Of a stretch of 55,183 nt of DNA, positions 11,012-23,006 are shown piece after piece. A program made the translations under genes and the position numbers. The stretch lies in NCBI GenBank assembly GCA_015231915.1, contig JADGAR010000001.1:1-55183 (forward strand), given 5' to 3'. The stretch is from Magnetococcales bacterium (GTDB lineage: Bacteria > Pseudomonadota > Magnetococcia > Magnetococcales > Magnetaquicoccaceae). The notes under the pieces are model-generated. The model made no database searches. It was not told the origin of the DNA and worked only from the letters and a program-made list of their open reading frames with translations. Positions within the stretch are counted from its first letter, which is position 1. Each line of letters opens with the position of its first letter.

Positions 11012-11394
11012 CACCCATCCCCCACGAGGAGCGCCTCCAGCGTTGGCTGGCCATCGCCAAGGAACGGTTTCCGGAACAGTTGGCCGCCCATCTGGATCCC
11101 CACCCGGCGCGCTGGGTTGCGGTCACCGAAAACGGCCCGCAAGAAGACCGGCAACGCTGCACCGCCTATCTGCGCGATCCCCTCGATCTCCCCTATTGGG
11201 CCTTCGTTCTGGCCAAGAGCTACCTGGACGACGTGGGCGAATGGCCCCTGTTCGGCATGTTCGTGGAACAGGCCCTGAACCAATGGGAAGAACATGGCGA
11301 TCCCCAACGCGCGGTTCGGGAGATCCTCGCGCAGGTCAAGCCGGTCTGGTCCGATCTGGATGTCATCCATGTGGGCGAGGAAGCAGCGGAATAA
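11008..11394 (+). CDS. Hypothetical protein coupled to the hybrid kinase
   Basis: About 128 residues, soluble and acidic, rich in Trp and Pro (PYWAFVLAKSYLDD, PLFGMFVEQAL). I do not recognise the family. The GTG at 11008 overlaps the kinase stop as GTGA, a typical coupling; an in-frame ATG at 10984 would overlap by 28 bases. It lies between the kinase and the Hsp70-like gene with no room for a separate promoter, so the three may form one unit, perhaps as signalling partner or adaptor (inference). Confidence 0.65.
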   Translation: MTPIPHEERLQRWLAIAKERFPEQLAAHLDPHPARWVAVTENGPQEDRQRCTAYLRDPLDLPYWAFVLAKSYLDDVGEWPLFGMFVEQALNQWEEHGDPQRAVREILAQVKPVWSDLDVIHVGEEAAE

Positions 11395-11442
11395 CGCCAT
11401 GACCGATCTTTCCATCCAAACGCCACGCCATTGGAGTCCTCC

Positions 11443-14325
11443 ATGAAGGTTCACAGCATACGTCTGCGCGAAAACAAGCTGCTCCCCCGCCAGTCCGCCG
11501 AAGTGGACCCGCTGGCCCGCAAACGGCTCAGGGAGCTGCGCGCGGAAATCATTGCGCTGCTCAGCCGGCAACGGTTCATCTCCTTCATCAAGCAACCGAA
11601 ACTCCATTTTGACAATCAGCTCAACTGCCTGTGGCTGCTGCACGAGTTCCTCACCACCCCGGAGCAGATGTTTCAGCATGTGGCGCGGCTGCAAATCTAC
11701 GCCTTTCGTCACTGGGAAGTCCCCTCCATGGAGGCGCTGCGTTCCATGGCCCGCGAGGATCTCATTCGCAGTCACGAAAAATTCCGCCGGGCCACGCTGC
11801 TCTCCTCGGACCCGGTCCCGAACGGCAAGGGTTACCGGACCATCACCATCGGCGGGGGGAGCGAAAACGACGCCACCACCGCCGAGCATCTGGTGCTTCC
11901 CATGCATCGGGTGGCGCAACGGGACATTTTCGCCTTCATTTTGAGCCACGGCCTGATCCCCCGTGACATCGAAGGGGTGGGCGAGAAGATGCACGAACTC
12001 TATCGCCTGACCAAGGAACTGAATCAACAGCAACGCACGGCCCAACCCGCATCGCCCCTCTCCCAGGATGCCCTGCGCAGTCGTCTGCTGGAAGGGGACT
12101 GGATGCGCGCCCGCCTGCCGATTCTGGAACCCTCCTGCCTGACCGACATGGAAAAAGGGGTCTGGGAGCTGTATCAACCCACCGTGCCCACGGGCAAGGG
12201 TTGGGTCGAACTGGCCCTGGACCCGCCGTGGGAGGCGCGCAACCCGGAAATGGACGTGCGCAAGGGGGTGATCGCCATCGACTTCGGCACCAGTTCCACG
12301 GTGGTGGCCTGCCGGGAGGACGGCAAGACCTCGCTGTTGCGGGTGGGGATGTCCGATTTCTACCGCAAGCCCGTGCCTGCGGACTACCAGAACCCGACGA
12401 TTCTGGAATTCGTCAATCTGCCGCGCTTTTTGAGCGCCTGGACCAGCGAGGCCCATCAGCCCATGACCCGCTGGGAGGATTTCCACTTTTCCCACGAGGC
12501 CCTCAAGAACTTCCGGGAGAACGAAGGGAATCAGCGCATCGTGGCCAGCCTGCTGACCAACATCAAGCAATGGCCCCTCACCCCGCCGGAATACCGCAAC
12601 CGGCGCATCACGGACCAGACGAGCGGCATGGAGGTGGAAATCCGCGCCACGGACGCCCCGATGCCGGTACGCGGTCAACCCATTGCGGTCTCCTGGGAGG
12701 ATCCCTTCGATCCCATCGAGCTGTACGCCTATTATCTTGGCCTGTTCATCAACCATCGGGCCAACGGGTTGTTTCTGGAGTATTACATGACCTTTCCGGT
12801 GACCTATCCCCGTGAGGTCAAGCGTTCGCTTTTGACGGCCTTTTCCCGCGGACTGATGCGCAGCCTGCCGGAAACCCTGATGCTGAGTCCGCTCATGGAG
12901 CGTTTTCACGTGCGGGAGGAGGCGTCCGAACCGGCGGCCTACGCCGCGTGCGCCCTGGAGGAGTTGGCCATTCCGGCCACCACCGATGGGACGGCCTACG
13001 CGGTGTTCGACTTCGGCGGCGGGAGCACGGATTTCGATTTCGGACTGTACCGCAGCCCCACGCACCAGGAGGTGGCACAGGGCTACGAACGGGTGATCGA
13101 GCGGTTCGGGGCCAGCGGCGACATGTATCTGGGCGGCGAAAACCTGGTGGCCAATCTGGCCTATCTGGCCTTCCAGCAGAATCTGGATCTGTGCCGGGAG
13201 CATCAGATTCCGTTCACGCTGCCGCCGGAGGCGGAGCGGTTTCCCGGACACGAGATGTTTCTGGACAACTCGCACGTGGCGCAGACCAACACGGCTTTGT
13301 TGACGGCCAAGGTCCGCCCCTTGTGGGAGAACTTCCGCTGGGATCTGGAGCCGATGCCGGGCGCCGCTCCCGGAGAGAAGAAGCCCGCACGGCGGCAAAC
13401 GGACCGGATTGCCGATGCCTTGAGCGAGTACCTGACCGGGACGGACTTCACGCTGCTGGCCGGGACGCAGACGATTCGCGCGCCGGACAACATCCTGGAG
13501 GTTGCGGTGGAGTTCTTGAACCGCAACCGGGAGAAGGTGCCGGTGACCATGCGGATCGATCGGGACGGGATCAATCATTTTCTGGTGCGGCGCGTGGGTC
13601 AGGGGATTCACCGGTTTTTCGTGGCGATGAAGCAGGCGTTTGCAGATCGCGGGGTCGTGCCCGAGGAGGTGCATGTGCTGCAGGCCGGCAACGCGAGCCG
13701 CGCCCTGCTGGTCCAGGCGTTGTTCGCGGCCTTGCTGCAACAGAAGATGTTCAAGTGGACGCCGCCGCCGGAGGGGGTCTTGAAGAATCTGGCCCTGGAG
13801 GAGATTCAGCACTCGGTGGCGTTCGAGCATTTCATCGTGCATCGTCCGCCGGTGGGGGATCCGGAGAACCCGTACCGACCGACGGCCAAGACCGGGGTGG
13901 CCATCGGGCTGCTGAAGCTGATCCCCGGCGAGAGTCTGCTGGCCATCAGCGCCACGCCTGCCGGGGAGCACGACGAGGCGCCGTTCCGGCTGTTCGTGGG
14001 TCGTTTGCATCAGGGGGTTTTCCAGCCGGTTTTGACCCAGAACGGGGCCTATCGGGAGTGGCGGGAGGTCGGCGTGCCGACGCGTGGAACCTTTGTGTTG
14101 CTCTACTCCTCGTCGCCGTTGGCCGGGCTGGGGACGTTGCCGCGCGGGGCGCAGGAGTTGCGGGAGAAGAGTCTGTTCTTTGGTCCTGGTCTGGTGAAGG
14201 AGAAGCGTCTGTACATTCAGGCCGTGGCCACGACGGAGGTGGAGTTGTGTCTGGCCGACTCTTTGGAGCAGATTCTGTTGCGACCGGAGGATGTGTTGCA
14301 CCGGATGCGTGTGACGTTGCAGTAG
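11443..14325 (+). CDS. Large Hsp70/actin-like ATPase with a novel N-terminal extension
   Basis: 960 residues, far longer than DnaK. The first 275 residues are a helical, charged extension that I do not recognise. The ATPase core follows: phosphate-1 motif IAIDFGTSSTVVA (Asp280), phosphate-2 motif VFDFGGGSTDFDFG (Asp523) and an adenosine-site segment VHVLQAGNASRALL. There is no DnaK-like EEVD tail and no dnaJ or grpE gene nearby; the part after about residue 790 is unlike the DnaK substrate domain. GGAG six bases before the ATG at 11443 sets the start, and a TTG at 11431 is less likely. It probably belongs with the kinase and small gene upstream. Function unknown; a regulatory chaperone or cytoskeletal-type ATPase is possible. 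Confidence 0.82.
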   Translation: MKVHSIRLRENKLLPRQSAEVDPLARKRLRELRAEIIALLSRQRFISFIKQPKLHFDNQLNCLWLLHEFLTTPEQMFQHVARLQIYAFRHWEVPSMEALRSMAREDLIRSHEKFRRATLLSSDPVPNGKGYRTITIGGGSENDATTAEHLVLPMHRVAQRDIFAFILSHGLIPRDIEGVGEKMHELYRLTKELNQQQRTAQPASPLSQDALRSRLLEGDWMRARLPILEPSCLTDMEKGVWELYQPTVPTGKGWVELALDPPWEARNPEMDVRKGVIAIDFGTSSTVVACREDGKTSLLRVGMSDFYRKPVPADYQNPTILEFVNLPRFLSAWTSEAHQPMTRWEDFHFSHEALKNFRENEGNQRIVASLLTNIKQWPLTPPEYRNRRITDQTSGMEVEIRATDAPMPVRGQPIAVSWEDPFDPIELYAYYLGLFINHRANGLFLEYYMTFPVTYPREVKRSLLTAFSRGLMRSLPETLMLSPLMERFHVREEASEPAAYAACALEELAIPATTDGTAYAVFDFGGGSTDFDFGLYRSPTHQEVAQGYERVIERFGASGDMYLGGENLVANLAYLAFQQNLDLCREHQIPFTLPPEAERFPGHEMFLDNSHVAQTNTALLTAKVRPLWENFRWDLEPMPGAAPGEKKPARRQTDRIADALSEYLTGTDFTLLAGTQTIRAPDNILEVAVEFLNRNREKVPVTMRIDRDGINHFLVRRVGQGIHRFFVAMKQAFADRGVVPEEVHVLQAGNASRALLVQALFAALLQQKMFKWTPPPEGVLKNLALEEIQHSVAFEHFIVHRPPVGDPENPYRPTAKTGVAIGLLKLIPGESLLAISATPAGEHDEAPFRLFVGRLHQGVFQPVLTQNGAYREWREVGVPTRGTFVLLYSSSPLAGLGTLPRGAQELREKSLFFGPGLVKEKRLYIQAVATTEVELCLADSLEQILLRPEDVLHRMRVTLQ

Positions 14326-14329
14326 GGAT

Positions 14330-15007
14330 TCATGCCGGCAGGGCCTTGATGTTGCTGAGCTGGTCGAGGGTCCCCAGCAGCAGGAGGCGGTGCTCGGCGA
14401 GCAGCAGGGTATCCGGCGGTGGGTTGAGGAGGATTTTTTCCCCGGTATTGCGTGCGGTCGGGGGGATGCGCAGACCGATGAGGCTGACGCCGAAGCGGGT
14501 ACGCAGTGTCAAGCCGCTCAGGGTATGTCCTGCGAAGGGTGCCGGGCAGGGGATTTCGATCATGGCGACGTTGAAGCCGAGGGGGATGCGTTCCGCCAGG
14601 TCGGGATGGAGGAGTTTGTTGGCGATGCGTGTTGCCATGTCCCGTTGCGGAAAGATGACCTCGGTGGTGCCGAAGGTCCGGATGGCGTCGCCCTGATTGT
14701 CGCTGTCCACCTGGACGAGGATGCGCGCCACGCCACGTTTATGGAGTGCGTGGGTTGCCAAGACGGTGACATCGAAATGTTTGCGGATGGCCACGATGGC
14801 GCAATCCACATCGAAGGCGCCGATGCTTTCCATGGCCTCGTCGTCGAGGGCGTCGCAGCAGACGGCACGGCTCACCTCGTCGCGGACCACGGCGACCCTC
14901 TCCTCGTCGCGATCCACCGCCAGGACCCTTGCCCCGCCTTCACTCAGCGCCCTGGCCGCCTGTCTGCCGAAGGTTCCCAGTCCCACTACCAGAAAATGGT
15001 TTGCCAT
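14330..15007 (-). CDS. ktrA: KtrA/TrkA-type potassium channel regulatory subunit
   Basis: 225 residues. RCK_N domain with the nucleotide-binding VVGLGTFGRQAARAL, then AVDRDEERV and the acidic DALDDEAM; the C-terminal RCK_C half (about 135-225) has FAGHTLSGLTLRTRFGVSLIGL. It binds adenine nucleotide on the cytoplasmic face and gates a KtrB pore. The matching membrane subunit is not adjacent but about 22 kb away (36608-37981). The stop converges with the Hsp70-like gene at a 4-base gap. MANHFLVVG is the natural family start. Confidence 0.85.
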   Translation of the reverse strand: MANHFLVVGLGTFGRQAARALSEGGARVLAVDRDEERVAVVRDEVSRAVCCDALDDEAMESIGAFDVDCAIVAIRKHFDVTVLATHALHKRGVARILVQVDSDNQGDAIRTFGTTEVIFPQRDMATRIANKLLHPDLAERIPLGFNVAMIEIPCPAPFAGHTLSGLTLRTRFGVSLIGLRIPPTARNTGEKILLNPPPDTLLLAEHRLLLLGTLDQLSNIKALPA

Positions 15008-15339
15008 GGTTGTTGTCCCAACGGTCGAGATGAGATCTTGATCGCGCAAGGCGCATGATGGTGACAGTGTAGAACACCCCCGCGCCCAGGAAAAGGGGCA
15101 CTCGCAGAGAAGACAATGCGCGATGCATATTCATCCCTGCAGATAACCGCCGCTACTTCTATATTTTATTGTTTTTGCATTAAAATTTATACATATCAAT
15201 ATTATTTTCGATAAAATTATAACTTAAGACAAAAAAAAGAAAAAAAACGTCTTGCAATATATTTTTTTCGACTTAAAATACGCATTCCAGTTAGCAGGAG
15301 ACCACAAAAGACCAGGGAAGCAGTCGGCATGGATTCGTG
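15008..15339. other. Intergenic, AT-rich boundary of the island
   Basis: 332 bases between the divergent ktrA and DMT exporter genes. The first 120 bases have ordinary GC-rich composition. From about 15160 the sequence becomes runs of A and T (15170-15275), marking the left edge of the AT-rich island. I see no gene, tRNA or inverted repeat of note; promoters for both genes should lie here. Confidence 0.6.
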
Positions 15340-16206
15340 ATGAACGTACCAGAAATTGCTCTCAACAATCATATACTTGCCATTGCGAGCGCCTTCTTTG
15401 GGGCGTTGTCGAATCTGCTTGCCAAGACCATATTGCAGGATGTGACGGCCAAGGACATCCTTGGGGTCAATTTTCTGATCATGACAGGAATCATGTCGCT
15501 TTTGTCTCCGGCGTTTTTTGAGATCAAAGGATCCTTGAAAATTGTTATCCCTCTCGTCTTACTGATCTCCGTTGTTGATTTTTTTGCCAATTATTTTTTC
15601 TTTAAATCCTTTGAAAAAAGCGATGTATCGGTCGTCACGCCGATGTTGGCGCTGGCCCCTGGCTTTACCTTCTTATTTGCCTGGTTGTTGTTGGGGGAAT
15701 CGGTGACATGGATGCAGTTGATCCTGTCGATTGGGGTGGTGGCTGGGATCGTGGCGTTTTCGGCGGATTTTTCCAAATTGCGGGAGTCATTGAACAACAC
15801 GTTATTGCCGGCACTCACGGCATCCCTGTTGTTCGGTTTTTCGGCCATACCCAGCAAGTATCTTTTATCGAACGGTCTCATGAACGCCCCCACCTTGTAT
15901 GAACTGCGAGGAGCGATCATCGGCTTGAGCGCCATTTTGATCTTCGGTGCCGGGATCAATCAACTGACGGCCAATCATTTCCGGAAAATCCTGGTGCGGG
16001 GGATTGTCGTCATTGTGCAGTGGCTGCTGCTTTACCTGGCACTCACCAACGGAAAATCTGGGGTGACCTACACTCTGGGCAACATCACACCAATATTTGT
16101 ATTTTTATTAGGAATACTCTTTCTAAACGAAAAAATCACTACAAAAAAATTAGCCGCCGCACTGTCTGTTATTATTTTATCATTACTGGTAATCAAGCCA
16201 TCATAA
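15340..16206 (+). CDS. EamA/DMT-superfamily transporter
   Basis: 288 residues with about ten hydrophobic helices in two EamA-like halves, the second starting near GFSAIPSKYLLS. Features of the family are ASAFFGALSNLLAK in the first helix, SVVTPMLALAPGFTFLFAWLLLGE, and at the end GNITPIFVFLLGILFLNEKIT. Members export amino acids or other small metabolites, or import nucleotide sugars. The ATG at 15340 directly follows an in-frame GTG; ribosome-site evidence is weak. It heads an AT-rich co-directional gene group whose other products act on aspartate-type substrates, so export of an amino-acid-derived compound is a reasonable guess. Confidence 0.8.
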   Translation: MNVPEIALNNHILAIASAFFGALSNLLAKTILQDVTAKDILGVNFLIMTGIMSLLSPAFFEIKGSLKIVIPLVLLISVVDFFANYFFFKSFEKSDVSVVTPMLALAPGFTFLFAWLLLGESVTWMQLILSIGVVAGIVAFSADFSKLRESLNNTLLPALTASLLFGFSAIPSKYLLSNGLMNAPTLYELRGAIIGLSAILIFGAGINQLTANHFRKILVRGIVVIVQWLLLYLALTNGKSGVTYTLGNITPIFVFLLGILFLNEKITTKKLAAALSVIILSLLVIKPS

Positions 16207-16235
16207 AGATTCTATAATACGGAGACAAGAAAAAA

Positions 16236-17747
16236 ATGTCTGAATTTATTGACAATATATTTAAAAACAAAACAGAAAATCATGTGAAAATGCAAATTCT
16301 GTTTCTCGATATCGTTGCCTACTCGAAAAGAAACACCGCGAGACAATTTGAACTCATTCAATCTTTTCAAAAAATTGTCAGAGATGCGCTCCATGAAATC
16401 CAGGGTCAAAATTTGGAGCCATTCAAAAAACGCAATTTTGACATGCAAACAGATACCATTCTTCTGCCAACCGGGGACGGGTTGGCAATCGGCATTCCGT
16501 ATCATGAAATCACAGAACTGGCACTCGAGCTTGCACTCGCAATCCTGCAAAAAGTCTCCAGACACAACTCTAGGCCAGCGTGCAAATCGTTTAAAAACGA
16601 CCATTGGTGCAACTGCCATAATAAATTTACCCTTAGATGTGGCATTCACTCAGGAAACATCGTCTTGTATCGCGACCTGTTCAGCGATCGATTCAACCTG
16701 GCAGGAAGTGTCATCAATCTGGCCTCCCGCATCATGAATGCAGCCGGCCCCAACCAAATTTTTCTACACCCCCATATCTACGCAGAAATTATCGATGCTA
16801 AAATAAGCTTTCCAAAAGATCATTTTCATGAATACGACAAAATAATCATAAAGCATGGCGAATCGATTGCCGCCTATCAATATATAAAGCCAAGATCACC
16901 AGGCCTCAATACTGACATAAACCAGGAAAAAAATTCATCCATTTTGAACGACGCCAAGCCAGCACAACCCACTCCCCAGGCCAGGCCGCGCACAAAGCCT
17001 GCACCCAACAGGAATCGACAACCACCCAACATTGCCGCATTGGAACAAAGAATGGTGCATGTGCCGAAGGCATCATTTATAATGGGAATTGGGTCGCAAA
17101 AACAATCCCAAGTATACCTGACCCGTCCATTTGCAATCGATCCTTATCTTGTCACCCAAGAATTTTATCAAGAGATCACCGGCACAAATCCGAGTTGCTT
17201 TACAGGAACCAGGCTCCTGCCCGTTGACAGCGTCTCGTGGATGGATGCAGTCCAATTTTGCAACAAACTTTCTGCAATTGCTGGCTACACACCCGTCTAT
17301 CAATTCGACGGCAATAATTTTATTTCCGACATCAAACAAAACGGCTTTCGTCTGCCCACGGAAGCGGAATGGGAATACTGCTGCTGGGGCTGCAGCAAGG
17401 GCGTCATCCCACCCCAGGCGACTGATGCCATCGCATGGTTCATGCGCAATTCCCAACAAACCACACATCCTGTAGGCACGAAAGAACCCAACCCATGCGG
17501 CTTGTATGACATGCTTGGCAATTTATGGGAATGGTGTCACGACTGGTTTGCACCCGACCTTGCGACATCTCCGGCCAACGACCCGTCAGGTCCCCCTGAC
17601 GGTCTGGAGCGGGTGTTGCGGGGCGGATCCTGGATTGATATTGAAAAAGTGCTGACACCAATCTATCGCAACCGCACAACACCAAGAACGGGGAAAAAGA
17701 CATTCGGATTCCGTATTGTCCGAACGTTAGATCACGACAACACCTGA
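16236..17747 (+). CDS. Class III nucleotidyl cyclase fused to an FGE/SUMF1-like domain
   Basis: 503 residues. The N-terminal half (about 15-225) is a class III adenylate/guanylate cyclase domain: FLDIVAYSKR and TGDGLAIGI supply the two metal-binding Asp, and FNLAGSVINLASRI the transition-state Asn and Arg. A Pro-rich linker (about 240-268) joins it to an FGE-sulfatase (SUMF1/EgtB fold) domain with PKASFIMGIG, FRLPTEAEWEY, GLYDMLGNLWEW, VLRGGSW and FGFRIVR. Where SUMF1 has its copper-binding Cys pair after GGSF, this protein reads GGSWIDIEKVL, so formylglycine chemistry is unlikely; it may be a ligand-binding or redesigned enzyme. The gene is AT-rich and starts 29 bases after the exporter. Confidence 0.85.
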   Translation: MSEFIDNIFKNKTENHVKMQILFLDIVAYSKRNTARQFELIQSFQKIVRDALHEIQGQNLEPFKKRNFDMQTDTILLPTGDGLAIGIPYHEITELALELALAILQKVSRHNSRPACKSFKNDHWCNCHNKFTLRCGIHSGNIVLYRDLFSDRFNLAGSVINLASRIMNAAGPNQIFLHPHIYAEIIDAKISFPKDHFHEYDKIIIKHGESIAAYQYIKPRSPGLNTDINQEKNSSILNDAKPAQPTPQARPRTKPAPNRNRQPPNIAALEQRMVHVPKASFIMGIGSQKQSQVYLTRPFAIDPYLVTQEFYQEITGTNPSCFTGTRLLPVDSVSWMDAVQFCNKLSAIAGYTPVYQFDGNNFISDIKQNGFRLPTEAEWEYCCWGCSKGVIPPQATDAIAWFMRNSQQTTHPVGTKEPNPCGLYDMLGNLWEWCHDWFAPDLATSPANDPSGPPDGLERVLRGGSWIDIEKVLTPIYRNRTTPRTGKKTFGFRIVRTLDHDNT

Positions 17748-17766
17748 GAACCTAATGGAGCGCAAA

Positions 17767-18879
17767 ATGCCTAAAAAATATAGAATTCATCTCATCACAA
17801 CCGGAGGCACCATTGCCGGACAGGTCGCATCCGACAAACAAGATGAAAGCATGAAGCGTAGCGCGGGTGACTTCGCCGCCCTGATTTCTCCTACCCTCGA
17901 CTATTTAAACAGGCACCATGATCTTGAAATTGATCTGTCAACTCATGAAATTGCAGACAAAGACAGCTCAAATATAAAGCCAGATGATTGGATAAAACTT
18001 GTAAATCATATTAAAAGCGAATACAATAAACATGAAGCATTCATCATCACGCACGGCACAAATACTTTAGGCTATACATGTGCCGCTCTTTCGTTTGCAA
18101 TCGCCAACCCCGCCAAACCCATTCTGCTGACGGGATCACAGGTTGCTGCGGGCTTACCCGGGTCCGATGCATTGACCAATCTGGAAAACGCCTTGAGGCT
18201 GGCGGCATGGCCGCGCGAAACAAACCCGATCAAAGGGGTCATGGCCATATTCGGCAGCCACATTATTACGGGAACACGGGTAAAAAAAGATACGGAGTTT
18301 GATTACGATGCGTTCAAATCTTTCAGCGTTGGCAGCATTGGACGTATCGGTCGTATTATCAATATCGAAGAAAGAAACCTGCAAAAACATTTAAGCTATC
18401 TTAAGACAGGACTGTATCCTGAAGCCAAGACAGCAGAACAACTAGTATGCGAAAACGAATTCGACATGCGCATCGTTTCCCTGACCGAATTTCCTGGCAT
18501 GTCCTCCGATCTATTCAAAAGTCTTGTCGAAAAAAATGATATTCAAGGCTTTATTCTCCGCGCATTTGGTGCCGGCGATCCATGCATGGACCACGCACGA
18601 GCATTTGAATACCTGCAAGGAAGAGGGATACCTATTGTTGTAACAACCCAAGCGCCAAATGGTAACAGCAATTTCCAGGTCAACGACCCTGGAAAACTGT
18701 TGCGAGACAAAAATCTGGCCATCCCTGCCTATGATATGAGCATTGAATCCATGACCACAAAATTAGCATGGCTGCTTGCAAAAAAGAGCAAAGGTGAGAT
18801 CACCTACAAAAATCTATGCACTGAGATGGTGCATGATATTCGCGGTGAAATTAACGTACTTTGGGAAGTAGGAGCTTGA
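17767..18879 (+). CDS. Asparaginase-family protein with Asp-to-Asn at the catalytic HGTDT motif
   Basis: 370 residues of the bacterial L-asparaginase/amidotransferase fold. The first catalytic Thr is in TTGGTIAG. The second motif, HGTDT in active enzymes, reads HGTNT (codons CAC GGC ACA AAT ACT), so the catalytic Asp of the Thr-Lys-Asp triad is Asn. The Lys is probably kept in GTRVKKDT. No signal peptide. GGAG six bases upstream sets the ATG at 17767, 19 bases after the cyclase-FGE stop. It may be an asparagine-binding or altered amidase enzyme; true asparaginase activity is uncertain. The downstream racemase-fold gene supports an Asp/Asn-related pathway. Confidence 0.85.
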   Translation: MPKKYRIHLITTGGTIAGQVASDKQDESMKRSAGDFAALISPTLDYLNRHHDLEIDLSTHEIADKDSSNIKPDDWIKLVNHIKSEYNKHEAFIITHGTNTLGYTCAALSFAIANPAKPILLTGSQVAAGLPGSDALTNLENALRLAAWPRETNPIKGVMAIFGSHIITGTRVKKDTEFDYDAFKSFSVGSIGRIGRIINIEERNLQKHLSYLKTGLYPEAKTAEQLVCENEFDMRIVSLTEFPGMSSDLFKSLVEKNDIQGFILRAFGAGDPCMDHARAFEYLQGRGIPIVVTTQAPNGNSNFQVNDPGKLLRDKNLAIPAYDMSIESMTTKLAWLLAKKSKGEITYKNLCTEMVHDIRGEINVLWEVGA

Positions 18880-18927
18880 TGATACGCAACAGCTACACAA
18901 AAGTACGACAGCCATGAGCATAAAACC

Positions 18928-20295
18928 ATGAATATCAAACCCATCAACCCAGGCATCACCCCCCCTGCACCGCCAGAAAGGGTGGCCAGGACAGTACAAC
19001 TCCTGCAGAAACTGGGTGTATGGCATATTGTCAGCATCAACTCACCTGCCACCAGTTGCCGGGATGCGGCGCAACGCCGCTACCGGCTTGGCAACACGGG
19101 AATCCCTTTGCATGACGAGGTCAAATCCCTGCATATGGTTGGCCATTATGCCGATGGTCAGACCCGTCACATCCTGCTGCATGCCCGCGCCCATTGTCAA
19201 TTCGATCTGGACGCAGCACGCAAAATCGTGGGGGCAATCAGGCTGGAGCGGTTGTCACCAGAGGAACTGGCGCAGTGCTGCGGGGCACGGTATGGAACGG
19301 TCAACCCCTTCAGCGAAGCGGAACGCTGGATCCAGATCTTTGACAAAGGCATGCTGACGCGCTATCTGACGCCGCACACCATGATAACCAACGCCGGGGA
19401 TTTGAATTGGGCTGTAGAGTTCCATCCACGAGACATGATTGCTGCACTACAAAAAGTTTCGCAGCAAGTAAAAATTGCTGATATTGCTGTGCAAATCAAA
19501 CAAATTCCAAGACAACTACCTGTTTTCGGCATTCTGACAGGCAATGGTCCTGACAGCGGACAACTGCTCTGGAGACTGCTCAATGCAAAAATCAGTCAGG
19601 CATTGGGTGAAAAAAAAAGGTTCCTTGGCGACCTCTCCTATCCGCGCGTCGTGATTGACTCCACACCGGAAATGGGACTTTCCATGGAACTGCAAGAGCG
19701 CTGCCGTGATGTGGAAAAGATCGTATGCGATGGCGTTGATAATCTATTGAAGGCAGGTGCCACCCATATCGCCATCGCATGCAACACGACCCCCTATTTT
19801 CAACACATATTAAAAGAAAAATGTAACAAAAATAATGCAAAATTTATATCTATCGTTGACACAGTGATTGAATATATTAAAAATAACAACATGTCTGAAC
19901 TTACCTTAATGGCAATTCCGAAAGTTGCAGAAATGGGAGAATTCAGTGCTTACGCCCCATTAAAAAATCATGGCGTTTCGCCAATGGACCCAAAAGCAGA
20001 ACAAACACTGCAAGAATTAGGATATATGATAAAAAATATAGGGTCTAACAGCGAGTTAAACAAGGAAAGAAATAAACTAATTCATGCGACAAGAATTGGA
20101 GCAAAAACAAAAACAGTATTAATAGCATTAACAGAAATTTCTGTTTTACTTGAACGCTTTCGCCAGCATGGGCAAAAAAATTTTGCTGAAAAACAAATAG
20201 TTGATACGCTCGAAATCTATGCAAGCCATTTAGCGAATTATTATTTAAACGTTTTAATTCACGATGAAAATCTTGAGCAAGAAATTTGGGAATAA
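18928..20295 (+). CDS. Fusion of a YbaK-type aminoacyl-tRNA editing domain and an Asp/Glu racemase domain
   Basis: 455 residues. Residues about 20-190 match the YbaK/INS editing domain: an EVKSLHMVG strand carrying the family Lys, AHCQFDLDAARKIVGA, SPEELAQCCGARYGTVNPF and the late WAVEFHPRDMI. Such domains hydrolyse mischarged tRNA. Residues about 205-450 match Asp/Glu racemases: FGILTGNGPDSG, VVIDSTPEMG, ACNTTPYF with the first catalytic Cys, and VDTLEIYASHL near the end. The second catalytic Cys, normally in GCTE, is replaced (LIALTEIS). A one-Cys enzyme may be a different lyase or isomerase, or use a single base. It follows the asparaginase-like gene by 48 bases. Confidence 0.8.
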   Translation: MNIKPINPGITPPAPPERVARTVQLLQKLGVWHIVSINSPATSCRDAAQRRYRLGNTGIPLHDEVKSLHMVGHYADGQTRHILLHARAHCQFDLDAARKIVGAIRLERLSPEELAQCCGARYGTVNPFSEAERWIQIFDKGMLTRYLTPHTMITNAGDLNWAVEFHPRDMIAALQKVSQQVKIADIAVQIKQIPRQLPVFGILTGNGPDSGQLLWRLLNAKISQALGEKKRFLGDLSYPRVVIDSTPEMGLSMELQERCRDVEKIVCDGVDNLLKAGATHIAIACNTTPYFQHILKEKCNKNNAKFISIVDTVIEYIKNNNMSELTLMAIPKVAEMGEFSAYAPLKNHGVSPMDPKAEQTLQELGYMIKNIGSNSELNKERNKLIHATRIGAKTKTVLIALTEISVLLERFRQHGQKNFAEKQIVDTLEIYASHLANYYLNVLIHDENLEQEIWE

Positions 20296-20316: not shown

Positions 20317-20713
20317 ATGGCTAGCCTATCAAATTTATCAAACAAATCATTTCTCAAAAATTTTAATATAGACATATTTTCTTGCCATAATAAAAATAAT
20401 CATAAAGATATTCTCTAAACCATCTCGCAATATTCAAAACAATTTATTGTTTGACAGATTTCTTTTCAAATTTTCAGAACACCAGGAAATAATCTTTATA
20501 TGCGATAAAAATGATATTCAAAATCCCGGCTTTTGCGCAAAACTCGGCGCGGCCAGTGCGCTTGGAAAGCCAATTTATGCGATCTTGGCGCAGAACCTGA
20601 ACGAGGAGGAATTAAACCACCTCCCCATCCCTTTACAAAATCGTGTCCGCATCGATAAAAAAATCAAACTAGAGACATTAATAACAAAAATATATGAAAA
20701 ATTTAATCAATAA
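20317..20713 (+). pseudogene. Possible frameshifted nucleoside deoxyribosyltransferase/TIR-like small gene
   Basis: Two adjoining very AT-rich frames. Frame A runs from the ATG at 20317 (MASLSNLSNKSF...) to a TAA at 20416-20418. Frame B is open from 20372 to 20713 and only has a TTG start at 20447. Joined near 20410-20420 they would give about 130 residues ending in EIIFICDKNDIQNPGFCAKL and AASALGKPIYAI. The latter resembles the nucleotide-binding C-terminal part of nucleoside 2-deoxyribosyltransferase-like and related domains (D..NPGF..E.G.A.ALGKP). Frame B alone would be an 88-residue protein. I cannot tell a true frameshift from a short real gene. Confidence 0.4.
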
Positions 20714-20723
20714 ATAATCGATC

Positions 20724-21120
20724 ATCACTCCTGCGCCATCAGCGTGCGGATCAGGGCGCTGGTCACGGCGCACCAGCCTTTGCCGATGTTGTGCGGATTA
20801 TATCCGCCGCCGCCAACCGCCAAAAGACGACCATGGCCCAACTCCTTGGCCATGGTGACAAAACACCCCGTCCCCATGATGAGCATCGATATCGATATAG
20901 GCCACACGCCGAATGTCGTACTCCTTACGCAGCGAGCGGATCACCGCCCCGATGCCGTTGAAAACACAAAATCCCCCGGCACGCTCCGGACAAGCGTGAT
21001 ACAAACCGGCAATCGGCACGAAAGCACGCCGGCACCCGCCGGACATAATAGGCACCCAAGCGAAACGTCCCGAAGGGATGTCCGTCGGGAAATCCGTATC
21101 CCGCGATTTCCGGACCAATG
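20724..21120 (-). pseudogene. Decayed duplicate of the histone-deacetylase-family gene
   Basis: Three blocks match the intact gene at 22035-23006 in order and orientation: 20724-20859 to 22034-22169 (4 mismatches in 136), 20860-21049 to 22481-22670 (about 14 in 190) and 21048-21120 to 22902-22974 (3 in 73). Two internal deletions of 311 and about 233 bases, neither a multiple of three, remove the middle of the deacetylase, and the first codons are also missing. The product cannot be functional. The left end coincides with the end of the AT-rich island; the right end is followed by a toxin-antitoxin pair. Confidence 0.9.
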
Positions 21121-21145
21121 CACCCCCGGCGGACTGCACTTCGGG

Positions 21146-21661
21146 TTACGAATCAGCAAACAGTCTTCGCAGAGAACGCACCGGCAGCCACAAAGTCAAG
21201 GGTTGGTCGGGCAGACAGGTAAAATCATAGCGCGCATAAAAGGACCGCACCTGTTCGTGTTTGGCGTCGATCACCACCGCCACCAGGCCCACGTCATTCG
21301 CAACCCGCAGACATCGAAAAAGGGCGTCCATCAACAGATGTTCCCCCAGTCCCTGGCCCTGCACCGTTTGATCAACTGCCAACCGTGCCACACGTACCAC
21401 AGGGAGGGGAAACGATGGAAACCGTTTGGCATGCTCCGGCGAAAGGTGAATTCTTGCGATACTACCCACGGTCAATGCGTGATATCCCAACACCCGTTCT
21501 GGCTGGGCATCGCACACCGCCACAAAAACGCGAGCCACCCCCGACTCCTGGTGCTGCCGGGCATATAAACCCAAATAATGATCCAGATCTGGTTCCCCAC
21601 ACACGAACCGCTTCCTCTGGTGGTGACGCGCCAAAGGCTCGATACGCCAATCAGGCAACAT
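21146..21661 (-). CDS. GNAT acetyltransferase toxin (TacT-like)
   Basis: About 171 residues. GNAT core: RVARLAVDQTVQGQGLGEHLL provides the V/A strand and the acetyl-CoA pyrophosphate loop QGQGLG, followed by DALFRCL and SFYARYDF. Together with the DUF1778 gene upstream this is the standard type II module in which the toxin acetylates charged tRNA and blocks translation. The ATG at 21661 overlaps the antitoxin stop by 11 bases; an upstream in-frame ATG at 21724 would extend far into the antitoxin gene and is less likely. Confidence 0.85.
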   Translation of the reverse strand: MLPDWRIEPLARHHQRKRFVCGEPDLDHYLGLYARQHQESGVARVFVAVCDAQPERVLGYHALTVGSIARIHLSPEHAKRFPSFPLPVVRVARLAVDQTVQGQGLGEHLLMDALFRCLRVANDVGLVAVVIDAKHEQVRSFYARYDFTCLPDQPLTLWLPVRSLRRLFADS

Positions 21662-21953
21662 CGCTTTGCCGTTTGAGATAGGTTTGAGCCGCTTCTTGCA
21701 ACCGTGGGCCGGGTGGGTCGTCACGATCCAAAACGGCGAGGAAAACCTGCCAATCTTGTGGCGTAAGGGTGATCACCTCATGTTCCGCCAGAATTGCCTT
21801 GGCCCTGTCCGATGCGGCGGAAACCAAAAAACCGGAAACGGACATCCCCGCCAAGGAAGCTGCCCGAGCCAGCATGCTTTTCAGCTCCGTCGTGACGCGC
21901 AAATCAATGCGTTCGTTTCGTGGTGTTGTGATCGCATGGTTCATCGTGGTCAT
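21651..21953 (-). CDS. DUF1778 ribbon-helix-helix antitoxin (TacA-like)
   Basis: 100 residues. NERIDLRVTTELKSMLARAASLAGMSVSGFL is a ribbon-helix-helix DNA-binding segment; the C-terminal TPQDWQVFLAVLDRDDPPGPRL is the part that wraps the toxin in DUF1778 antitoxins. AAGGGG eight bases before the ATG at 21953 fixes the start over other in-frame ATGs at 21959 and 21983. It precedes and overlaps the GNAT toxin gene, and such antitoxins repress their own operon. The pair sits between the deacetylase fossil and the intact copy. Confidence 0.87.
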   Translation of the reverse strand: MTTMNHAITTPRNERIDLRVTTELKSMLARAASLAGMSVSGFLVSAASDRAKAILAEHEVITLTPQDWQVFLAVLDRDDPPGPRLQEAAQTYLKRQSDVA

Positions 21954-22034
21954 TGACATACCCCTTATTGAATATGCTGACAATTTCTATTGACATCACG
22001 ACTGGTTGCTCACGCAATCTTGAAAATTGGCCAA

Positions 22035-23006
22035 TCACTCCTGCGCCATCGGCGTGCGGATCAGGGCGCTGGTCACGGCGCACCAGCCTTTGCCGATGTT
22101 GTGCGGATTGTATCCGCCGCCGCCAACCGCCAGAAGACGACCATGGCCCAACTCCTCGGCCATGGTGACGAGACGCGCGGCGACCTGACCGTGCAGCGTC
22201 GCGGAGAGACGCAACTGGGTCAACGGGTCGCCGGCAATGGAATCGGCGCCACACTGGAGAATGAAAAACTCCGGCTCGGCCTCCTGCAAAAACCGGATCC
22301 CCTGGGGCCAGCGCTGCATGAAATGCACATCCCCGGCGCCAGGAGGCATCGGCACGTTCAACTTGGTGCCCAACGCGGCACCTTCCCCGGACTCCGACGC
22401 ATCGCCGGTGCCAGGGTACAACGTGCGACCATCCTGATGATAATCCAAAAATCGCACATCGGGATCGGTCTCGAAGGCATAAAACACCCCGTCCCCATGA
22501 TGGGCATCGATATCGATGTAGGCCACGCGCCGAATGTCGTACTCCTGACGCAGCGAGCGGATCACCACCCCGATGTCGTTGAAAACACAAAATCCCCCGG
22601 CACGCTCCGGACGGGCATGATGCAAACCGGCAATCGGCACGAAGGCACGCCGACATCCGCCGGACATGATGGAACGCATCGCCGCCAACGCCGATCCCAC
22701 CACATGGGCAGCCGCTTCGTATACCCCACGATAGGCGGGGGTGTCCCCGTAATCCAGATAACCGGCCCCGCTCACGGATTGCTCACGCACTTTGCGCACA
22801 TACTCCGGTGTGTGAAACCGCAACAACTCCTCCTCCAGGGCCAAAACAGGCCGGTCCACCCGCACCTGCCGGTCCAGCCCCTGCACCTGGGCCTCGTCCC
22901 AATAGGCACCCATGCGAAATGTCCCGAAGGGATGGCCGTCGGGAAATCCGTATCCCGCGATTTCCGGACCAATGGTGACCGAAACAACCGGAGAGACAGT
23001 GCTCAT
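22035..23006 (-). CDS. Histone deacetylase-family protein (acetoin utilisation/AcuC-like)
   Basis: 323 residues, single zinc-hydrolase domain of the HDAC/arginase superfamily. Motifs: HHARPERAGGFCVFNDIGV with the catalytic His pair, YIDIDAHHGDGV with zinc ligands, QCGADSIAGDPL and VGGGGYNPHNIGKGW. Members deacetylate acetyl-lysine, acetylpolyamines or similar amides; the substrate here is not known. It lies 21 bases downstream of rquA in the same direction. A truncated second copy is at 20724-21120. Confidence 0.88.
   Translation of the reverse strand: MSTVSPVVSVTIGPEIAGYGFPDGHPFGTFRMGAYWDEAQVQGLDRQVRVDRPVLALEEELLRFHTPEYVRKVREQSVSGAGYLDYGDTPAYRGVYEAAAHVVGSALAAMRSIMSGGCRRAFVPIAGLHHARPERAGGFCVFNDIGVVIRSLRQEYDIRRVAYIDIDAHHGDGVFYAFETDPDVRFLDYHQDGRTLYPGTGDASESGEGAALGTKLNVPMPPGAGDVHFMQRWPQGIRFLQEAEPEFFILQCGADSIAGDPLTQLRLSATLHGQVAARLVTMAEELGHGRLLAVGGGGYNPHNIGKGWCAVTSALIRTPMAQE

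Follow-up and report, generated by a model that had tools for sequence, protein, structure and literature searches.

The gene at positions 18928-20295 of a 55,183-nucleotide stretch of Magnetococcales DNA (the window; contig JADGAR010000001.1) encodes a real two-domain protein, in which an INS/YbaK-type domain, of a kind that removes wrongly attached amino acids from tRNA, is joined in one chain to an aspartate-racemase fold, and which has a fixed asparaginase partner. Together with the control genes that accompany the pair, this fusion suggests an undescribed module for aspartate-type amino acids. The chain is read from a single open reading frame (ORF) of 455 aa on the forward strand, with an ATG start and without an internal stop. 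It closes a run of genes (15337-20295; Table 1) with a GC content of 45.7% in a window of 60.3%, as is expected of acquired DNA.

Table 1. Features of the fusion locus in the window
Feature	Positions	Strand	Remarks
EamA-family transporter	15337-16206	+	Opens the run; L007 and L008 have it too; downstream in L010
Class III nucleotide cyclase and FGE-sulfatase-like domain in one chain	16236-17747	+	Assigned by Pfam; likely controller
Asparaginase-family protein, 374 aa	17755-18879	+	Ends 48 bp before the fusion; HGTN replaces HGTD
Fusion, INS/YbaK-type (PF04073) domain	18928-19497	+	Residues about 15-189; K66, G123-N126-P127 loop, TNAGDL
Fusion, aspartate-racemase fold	19516-20295	+	Residues 197-442; C285 (Cys1) kept, A400 at the Cys2 site
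TIR-like partner remnant	20417-20710	+	C-terminal end only; 80.6% identical to residues 146-243 of the L008 TIR-like protein

A preliminary description of this DNA had read the chain as a YbaK editing domain joined to an Asp/Glu racemase domain, and both folds are found in the predicted structure of the single chain, which was built on 13 family members (pLDDT 79.7, pTM 0.60). In that structure, the INS half matches 1wdv_A over 149 residues (Z 19.3, rmsd 1.8) and 2z0k over 154 residues (Z 19.2, rmsd 2.2), which provides the likeness of residues 20-190 to YbaK on which the reading had been staked; the racemase half matches aspartate racemase 2dx7_A over 221 residues (Z 22.6, rmsd 2.5). Of the two Pfam profiles proposed as a check, PF04073 (tRNA_edit) covers residues 58-145 of the window chain at 29.7 bits against a cut-off of 25.5, and PF01177 (Asp_Glu_race) covers residues 237-430 at 25.5 bits, short of the 31 bits required. 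Among other fusions, PF04073 exceeds its cut-off in L012 (36.6 bits) and gives 23.9 bits in L003, 24.1 bits in L005, and no listed match in L006. Scores against other families are low, namely 15.3 bits for TIGR00011 (YbaK; cut-off 153), 33.9 bits for TIGR00035 (cut-off 93.1), and 64.7 bits for the best NCBIfam family of the racemase half, the CuyB cysteate racemase (NF052483; cut-off 190). The racemase half also has a weak match to phrog_34473, a family without a name. The GC content changes within the fusion gene, from 56% in the INS half to 38.7% in the racemase half; the step recurs in L008 (49.3 and 36.5%) and, more weakly, in L007, L009, and L049.

All the landmarks quoted for the chain were located: DEVKSL (K66), GARYGTVNPF (G123, N126, P127), ACNTTPYF (C285), and VDTLEIYAS, and the GCTE of the second catalytic Cys is indeed replaced by ALTE, with A400 at its site. 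C285 and A400 align with both Cys positions of the P. horikoshii aspartate racemase. Residue counts and fusion trees comprise 13 complete members, with L017 left out as its contig ends before the racemase half. Across these members, the Cys2 site is Ala throughout (13/13), and Cys1 is kept in 11, with Asp instead in L014 and L016; the proposal of a single catalytic Cys thus holds for the 11, while the other two have neither. None of the 13 carries the two facing catalytic Cys of a two-base Asp/Glu racemase. Further well-kept Cys residues are C44 of the INS half (13/13) and C299 (12/13), the latter on helix H288-301, after C285.

In the INS half, K66, G123, and P127 are invariant (13/13) and align with the INS domain of ProRS in the window genome. 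The Lys and the GxxxP loop are the catalytic features of INS domains; as the fusions conserve both, in register with ProRS, their substrate may plausibly be linked to tRNA. The INS trans-editing proteins (YbaK/ProX, ProXp-ala, APE2540; PF04073) share with it the fold and equivalents of these residues, whereas the fusion adds a racemase fold. With PhAspR (1jfl/2dx7) and CuyB, the fusions have in common the racemase fold and, in 11/13, Cys1; in contrast to them, the fusion has Ala for Cys2, scores far below the family cut-offs, and is not stand-alone. In glutamate racemase, Cys1 attacks or serves the D-enantiomer. One-Cys members of the family are already known: in the literature consulted (PMC12661438, PMC12838360, and PMC8142540), EcL-DER (YgeA) has Thr83/Cys197 and acts on L-Asp, while RacX has Ala79/Cys193 and is active in both directions. 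Both have thus lost Cys1 and kept Cys2, and the fusion, which keeps the opposite Cys, is their mirror case.

The fusion was found in 14 genomes: scanning 84,980 species genomes gave 11 loci, separate genome searches added two, and the window is the remaining one. The 11 loci are distributed among Magnetococcales, Sulfurovum, Saprospiraceae, another Bacteroidetes, Aminicenantes, Acidobacteriota, and a Deltaproteobacterium. Within Magnetococcales, six of 48 genomes hold the fusion, and among wider relatives of the other hosts, matches at E 1e-40 or better occur in 1/295, 2/248, 1/162, and 3/397 genomes; another set of 396 genomes gave two full-length matches, among 35 with weaker single-domain matches. 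The full-length matches in these wider sets are members already known, and the rest are two stand-alone racemases. The module is rare and apparently horizontally spread, on counts that rest on few genomes, partly related. The full chain was not found in phage, plasmid, or viral collections, and a phage or plasmid origin was rejected: the viral scan gave 49 pattern matches with no relative among them, phages gave none, and plasmids gave stand-alone racemases only.

In a tree of the 13 racemase halves with 20 stand-alone racemases, a branch (98/96) separates the fusions from all the rest, and another (100/100) sets them apart together with two stand-alone racemases of Campylobacterota. Both of these racemases (L055, 6943-7632; L073, 1263-1949) retain both Cys, and near each lie genes for an AGCS carrier, an aspartate ammonia-lyase (TIGR00839, 710.6 and 532.4 bits, cut-off 681.2), and a very short asparaginase-like protein, surroundings that likely represent an aspartate-use cluster. 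A histidine kinase and a response regulator were also noted there by eye. Because the sister two-Cys racemases adjoin aspartase- and asparaginase-type genes, the racemase half was probably derived from an aspartate racemase, with Cys2 lost at or before the fusion.

The most constant companion of the fusion is the asparaginase, which lies directly upstream on the same strand in 13/13 testable loci, the called ORFs being -65 to 259 bp apart; L011, with only 72 bp of upstream sequence, was left out of this count. Locus genes were predicted with a script that greedily takes the longest ORFs and may miss small genes. The window asparaginase reaches 205 bits against asnASE_I (NCBIfam cut-off 260.5) and 159 bits against gatD (cut-off 324); the idea of a GatD-type amidotransferase partner was set aside. 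Two layouts can be distinguished. Type A (the window, L007, L008, L010, and L015) has one asparaginase, in which the catalytic Thr is kept and HGTN is present in 5/5. In the three Magnetococcales loci of this type, an EamA gene is followed by the cyclase-FGE gene and the asparaginase, and a TIR-like gene stands after the fusion; in L015, a protein with a KAP NTPase and FGE takes the place of the cyclase, and in L010 the pair has neither a cyclase nor an NTPase gene beside it. The TIR-like partner scores 27.8 in L003/L007 against a Pfam cut-off of 28, is split in L008, and has a predicted structure with a pLDDT of 41.

Type B (L009, L049, L051, L012, L014, L016, and L017, with L013 assigned by its asparaginase only) consists of an AAA_35 domain fused to an asparaginase, a second asparaginase, and then the fusion. 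In six of these loci, the first gene is HTH-AAA-like, with weak Pfam matches in L009, L049, and L051. The second asparaginase keeps TGGTI and HGTD in 7/7, while the AAA_35-fused one has lost the first catalytic Thr in 4/6; the residue counts exclude the L013 asparaginase, whose N-terminus is missing, and the Thr count also excludes the AAA_35-asparaginase of L017, which is present as two ORFs. The latter (L017, 1-1932) is split between the N and C domains of the asparaginase, by either a frameshift or an assembly error.

The two layouts do not follow the descent of the fusion. In the fusion tree, the six Magnetococcales members form one clade (100/99) with both types inside it, and a single type A clade is rejected (AU p 0.00017; three changes). 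In the asparaginase tree, the type A copies do group together (100/100), L015 adjoining those of Magnetococcales. Because the type A asparaginases form one clade and their fusions do not, the trees indicate an exchange, either of the asparaginase and its controller around the fusion or of the fusion around them. The exact placement of L015 in the fusion tree is less secure because of its long branch.

Enzymes of D-amino-acid metabolism accompany some of the loci. A D-amino-acid transaminase gene stands beside the HTH-AAA gene in three type B Magnetococcales, and among the 48 Magnetococcales genomes, TIGR01121 exceeds 150 bits only in G018, G035, and G036 (270, 247, and 212 bits, all below the curated cut-off of 277). 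These strong matches adjoin the fusion locus in 3/3 genomes, against 0/45 of the others, the window genome included. The remaining matches across the 48 genomes, at 120-148 bits, probably represent the ordinary branched-chain enzyme. In L012, a D-amino-acid transaminase frame (11271-11591) overlapping the end of the fusion stops after 106 aa, the first third, and a diaminopimelate-decarboxylase-like gene (11844-13160) follows on the opposite strand. In L015, the fusion is followed by a DAO-family oxidase gene (43.7 bits, cut-off 27.9), to which NCBIfam assigned no named family. Neither kind of gene was found within the available stretch of L014 or L016, and transaminase or oxidase genes are present at 5/14 loci in total. 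L014 also encodes another, distinct protein with a racemase fold (PF01177 at 19 bits) on the reverse strand (13395-14357), 2 kb downstream of the fusion.

Genes of the kind found in defence systems also occur within about 10 kb of several loci: a ThsB-like TIR and a TIR-SLOG gene in L011, MTase_II in L012, a TmtA-like gene in L014, and a TIR gene in L010, in a tally that was uncontrolled. PADLOC assigned 0 families to the window fusion, the asparaginase, and the cyclase-FGE protein, whereas the L015 KAP-FGE protein resembles QatA (119.7 bits) and PifA (104.2 bits). No structured RNA or tRNA was found in the window, and a scan for promoters and terminators rose only moderately above shuffles. 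Just downstream of the locus, at 21146-21983 on the reverse strand, the gene of a GNAT-family protein overlaps that of a small protein, by eye a ribbon-helix-helix antitoxin, and the two are likely a GNAT toxin-antitoxin pair. The ORFs that flank it (20798-21139 and 21904-22656, reverse strand) share similar stretches by eye, including IDIDAHHGDGV, presumably a histone-deacetylase-like motif; perhaps a gene was broken or duplicated here around an insertion.

Conflict operons controlled by an NTPase (KAP/QatA, STAND-AAA) or by a cyclase (cyclase-TIR operons such as Pycsar) resemble this locus in their exchangeable P-loop or cyclase controllers, in having FGE and TIR-like domains, and in their sporadic spread. 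The core of the present locus differs from these operons: it consists of an asparaginase with an INS-racemase protein, which is not among the known effectors. Judged by title and abstract, no paper was found that describes the fusion or its pairing with an asparaginase, and the searched text of two papers on conflict systems (PMC7159879 and PMC8195603) uses the word "asparaginase" 0 times.

The explanation that we tentatively prefer is a controlled module that clears Asp/Asn-type (D-)amino acids, or mimics of them, both from the pool and from tRNA. The folds, the residue pattern, the gene pairing, the swapping of controllers, and the link to a D-amino-acid transaminase are observed. In the scheme that we infer from them for the catalytic steps, substrate, and direction of response, the cyclase or NTPase gene would sense the trigger and switch the module on. 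The INS half would most likely hydrolyse an aminoacyl ester carried by tRNA. Aspartate or a close analogue would be bound by the racemase half, whose one remaining base would lie on the side attacking the D-enantiomer; this half would act on or recognize the D-form without free interconversion. The INS half would remove a D-aspartate-type residue, or aspartate itself, from tRNA. The asparaginase would take off the amide, the D-amino-acid transaminase or DAO-family oxidase would dispose of the amino acid, and the EamA protein would export. A ligand of the D-aspartate type is favoured by the Cys1-only pattern, the presence of a D-amino-acid transaminase at some loci, and the probable descent from an aspartate racemase, and the AAA_35-fused asparaginase without its first Thr might behave as a sensor would. 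Several findings count against this clearing function: the Asp at Cys1 in two members means that a thiol base is not universal, the HGTN of type A may make its asparaginase inactive or changed, the transaminase or oxidase genes are confined to a minority of loci, L010 lacks an adjoining cyclase or NTPase, and the TIR, KAP, and cyclase genes point equally to a conflict system.

We rank clearing ahead of defence by arrest, which appears rather unlikely; the transaminase, oxidase, and exporter genes speak more for clearing, the controllers more for conflict. Under arrest, a sensed trigger would turn on the asparaginase and the fusion, Asn and Asp would be drained, tRNA would be left uncharged, and translation in the infected cell would stop. 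Controllers that swap around a fixed pair, the resemblance of the L015 KAP-FGE protein to QatA and PifA, the TIR-like partner just short of its cut-off, the defence-type neighbours of the uncontrolled tally, and a low-GC operon scattered sporadically over several phyla all fit such a system. However, PADLOC was empty for the core proteins, the full chain is absent from the phage, plasmid, and viral collections, the D-amino-acid enzymes are superfluous to arrest, and of the TIR-like gene the window has only a remnant and L008 a split copy.

An unlikely alternative is a sensor: the racemase and some of the asparaginase domains would be pseudo-enzymes, binding Asp or Asn to report the amino-acid state, and the INS half would only dock a tRNA 3' end. 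The universal loss of Cys2, the loss of Cys1 in two members, the missing Thr of most AAA_35-fused asparaginases, and the type A HGTN agree with such sensing. Against it stand the intact motifs of the type B second asparaginases, the invariant Lys and loop of the INS half, and EcL-DER and RacX, which show that one-Cys members can be active, though with the other Cys kept. Slightly more doubtful is ordinary Asp/Asn catabolism under an unusual regulator, with the INS half hydrolysing a small ester or amide unrelated to tRNA. The nearest two-Cys relatives do have genes for aspartase, an asparaginase-like protein, and an amino-acid carrier in their vicinity, but catabolic operons do not commonly swap KAP, cyclase-FGE, and AAA_35 controllers around one pair, and the racemase half is no longer two-base. 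Misassembly or a chance joining of two frames, which the GC step within the window gene might suggest, is ruled out, since the same two-domain chain, with these motifs and no stop within, recurs in 14 genomes of separate assemblies.

It is conceivable, though doubtful, that the locus represents a new type of controlled system, for immunity or for the response to antimetabolites, with amino-acid chemistry at tRNA as its effector core. In it, an asparaginase would be paired with an INS-racemase protein recognizing D-aspartate-type residues on tRNA, and degenerate asparaginase domains would serve as ligand sensors of AAA_35 NTPases. If so, bacteria would control translation, or resist an amino-acid mimic, through Asp and Asn, both free and on tRNA. 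The family would then offer a natural racemase fold with the first Cys only, a test of one-base members, and would indicate that asparaginase domains can act as sensors on P-loop NTPases.
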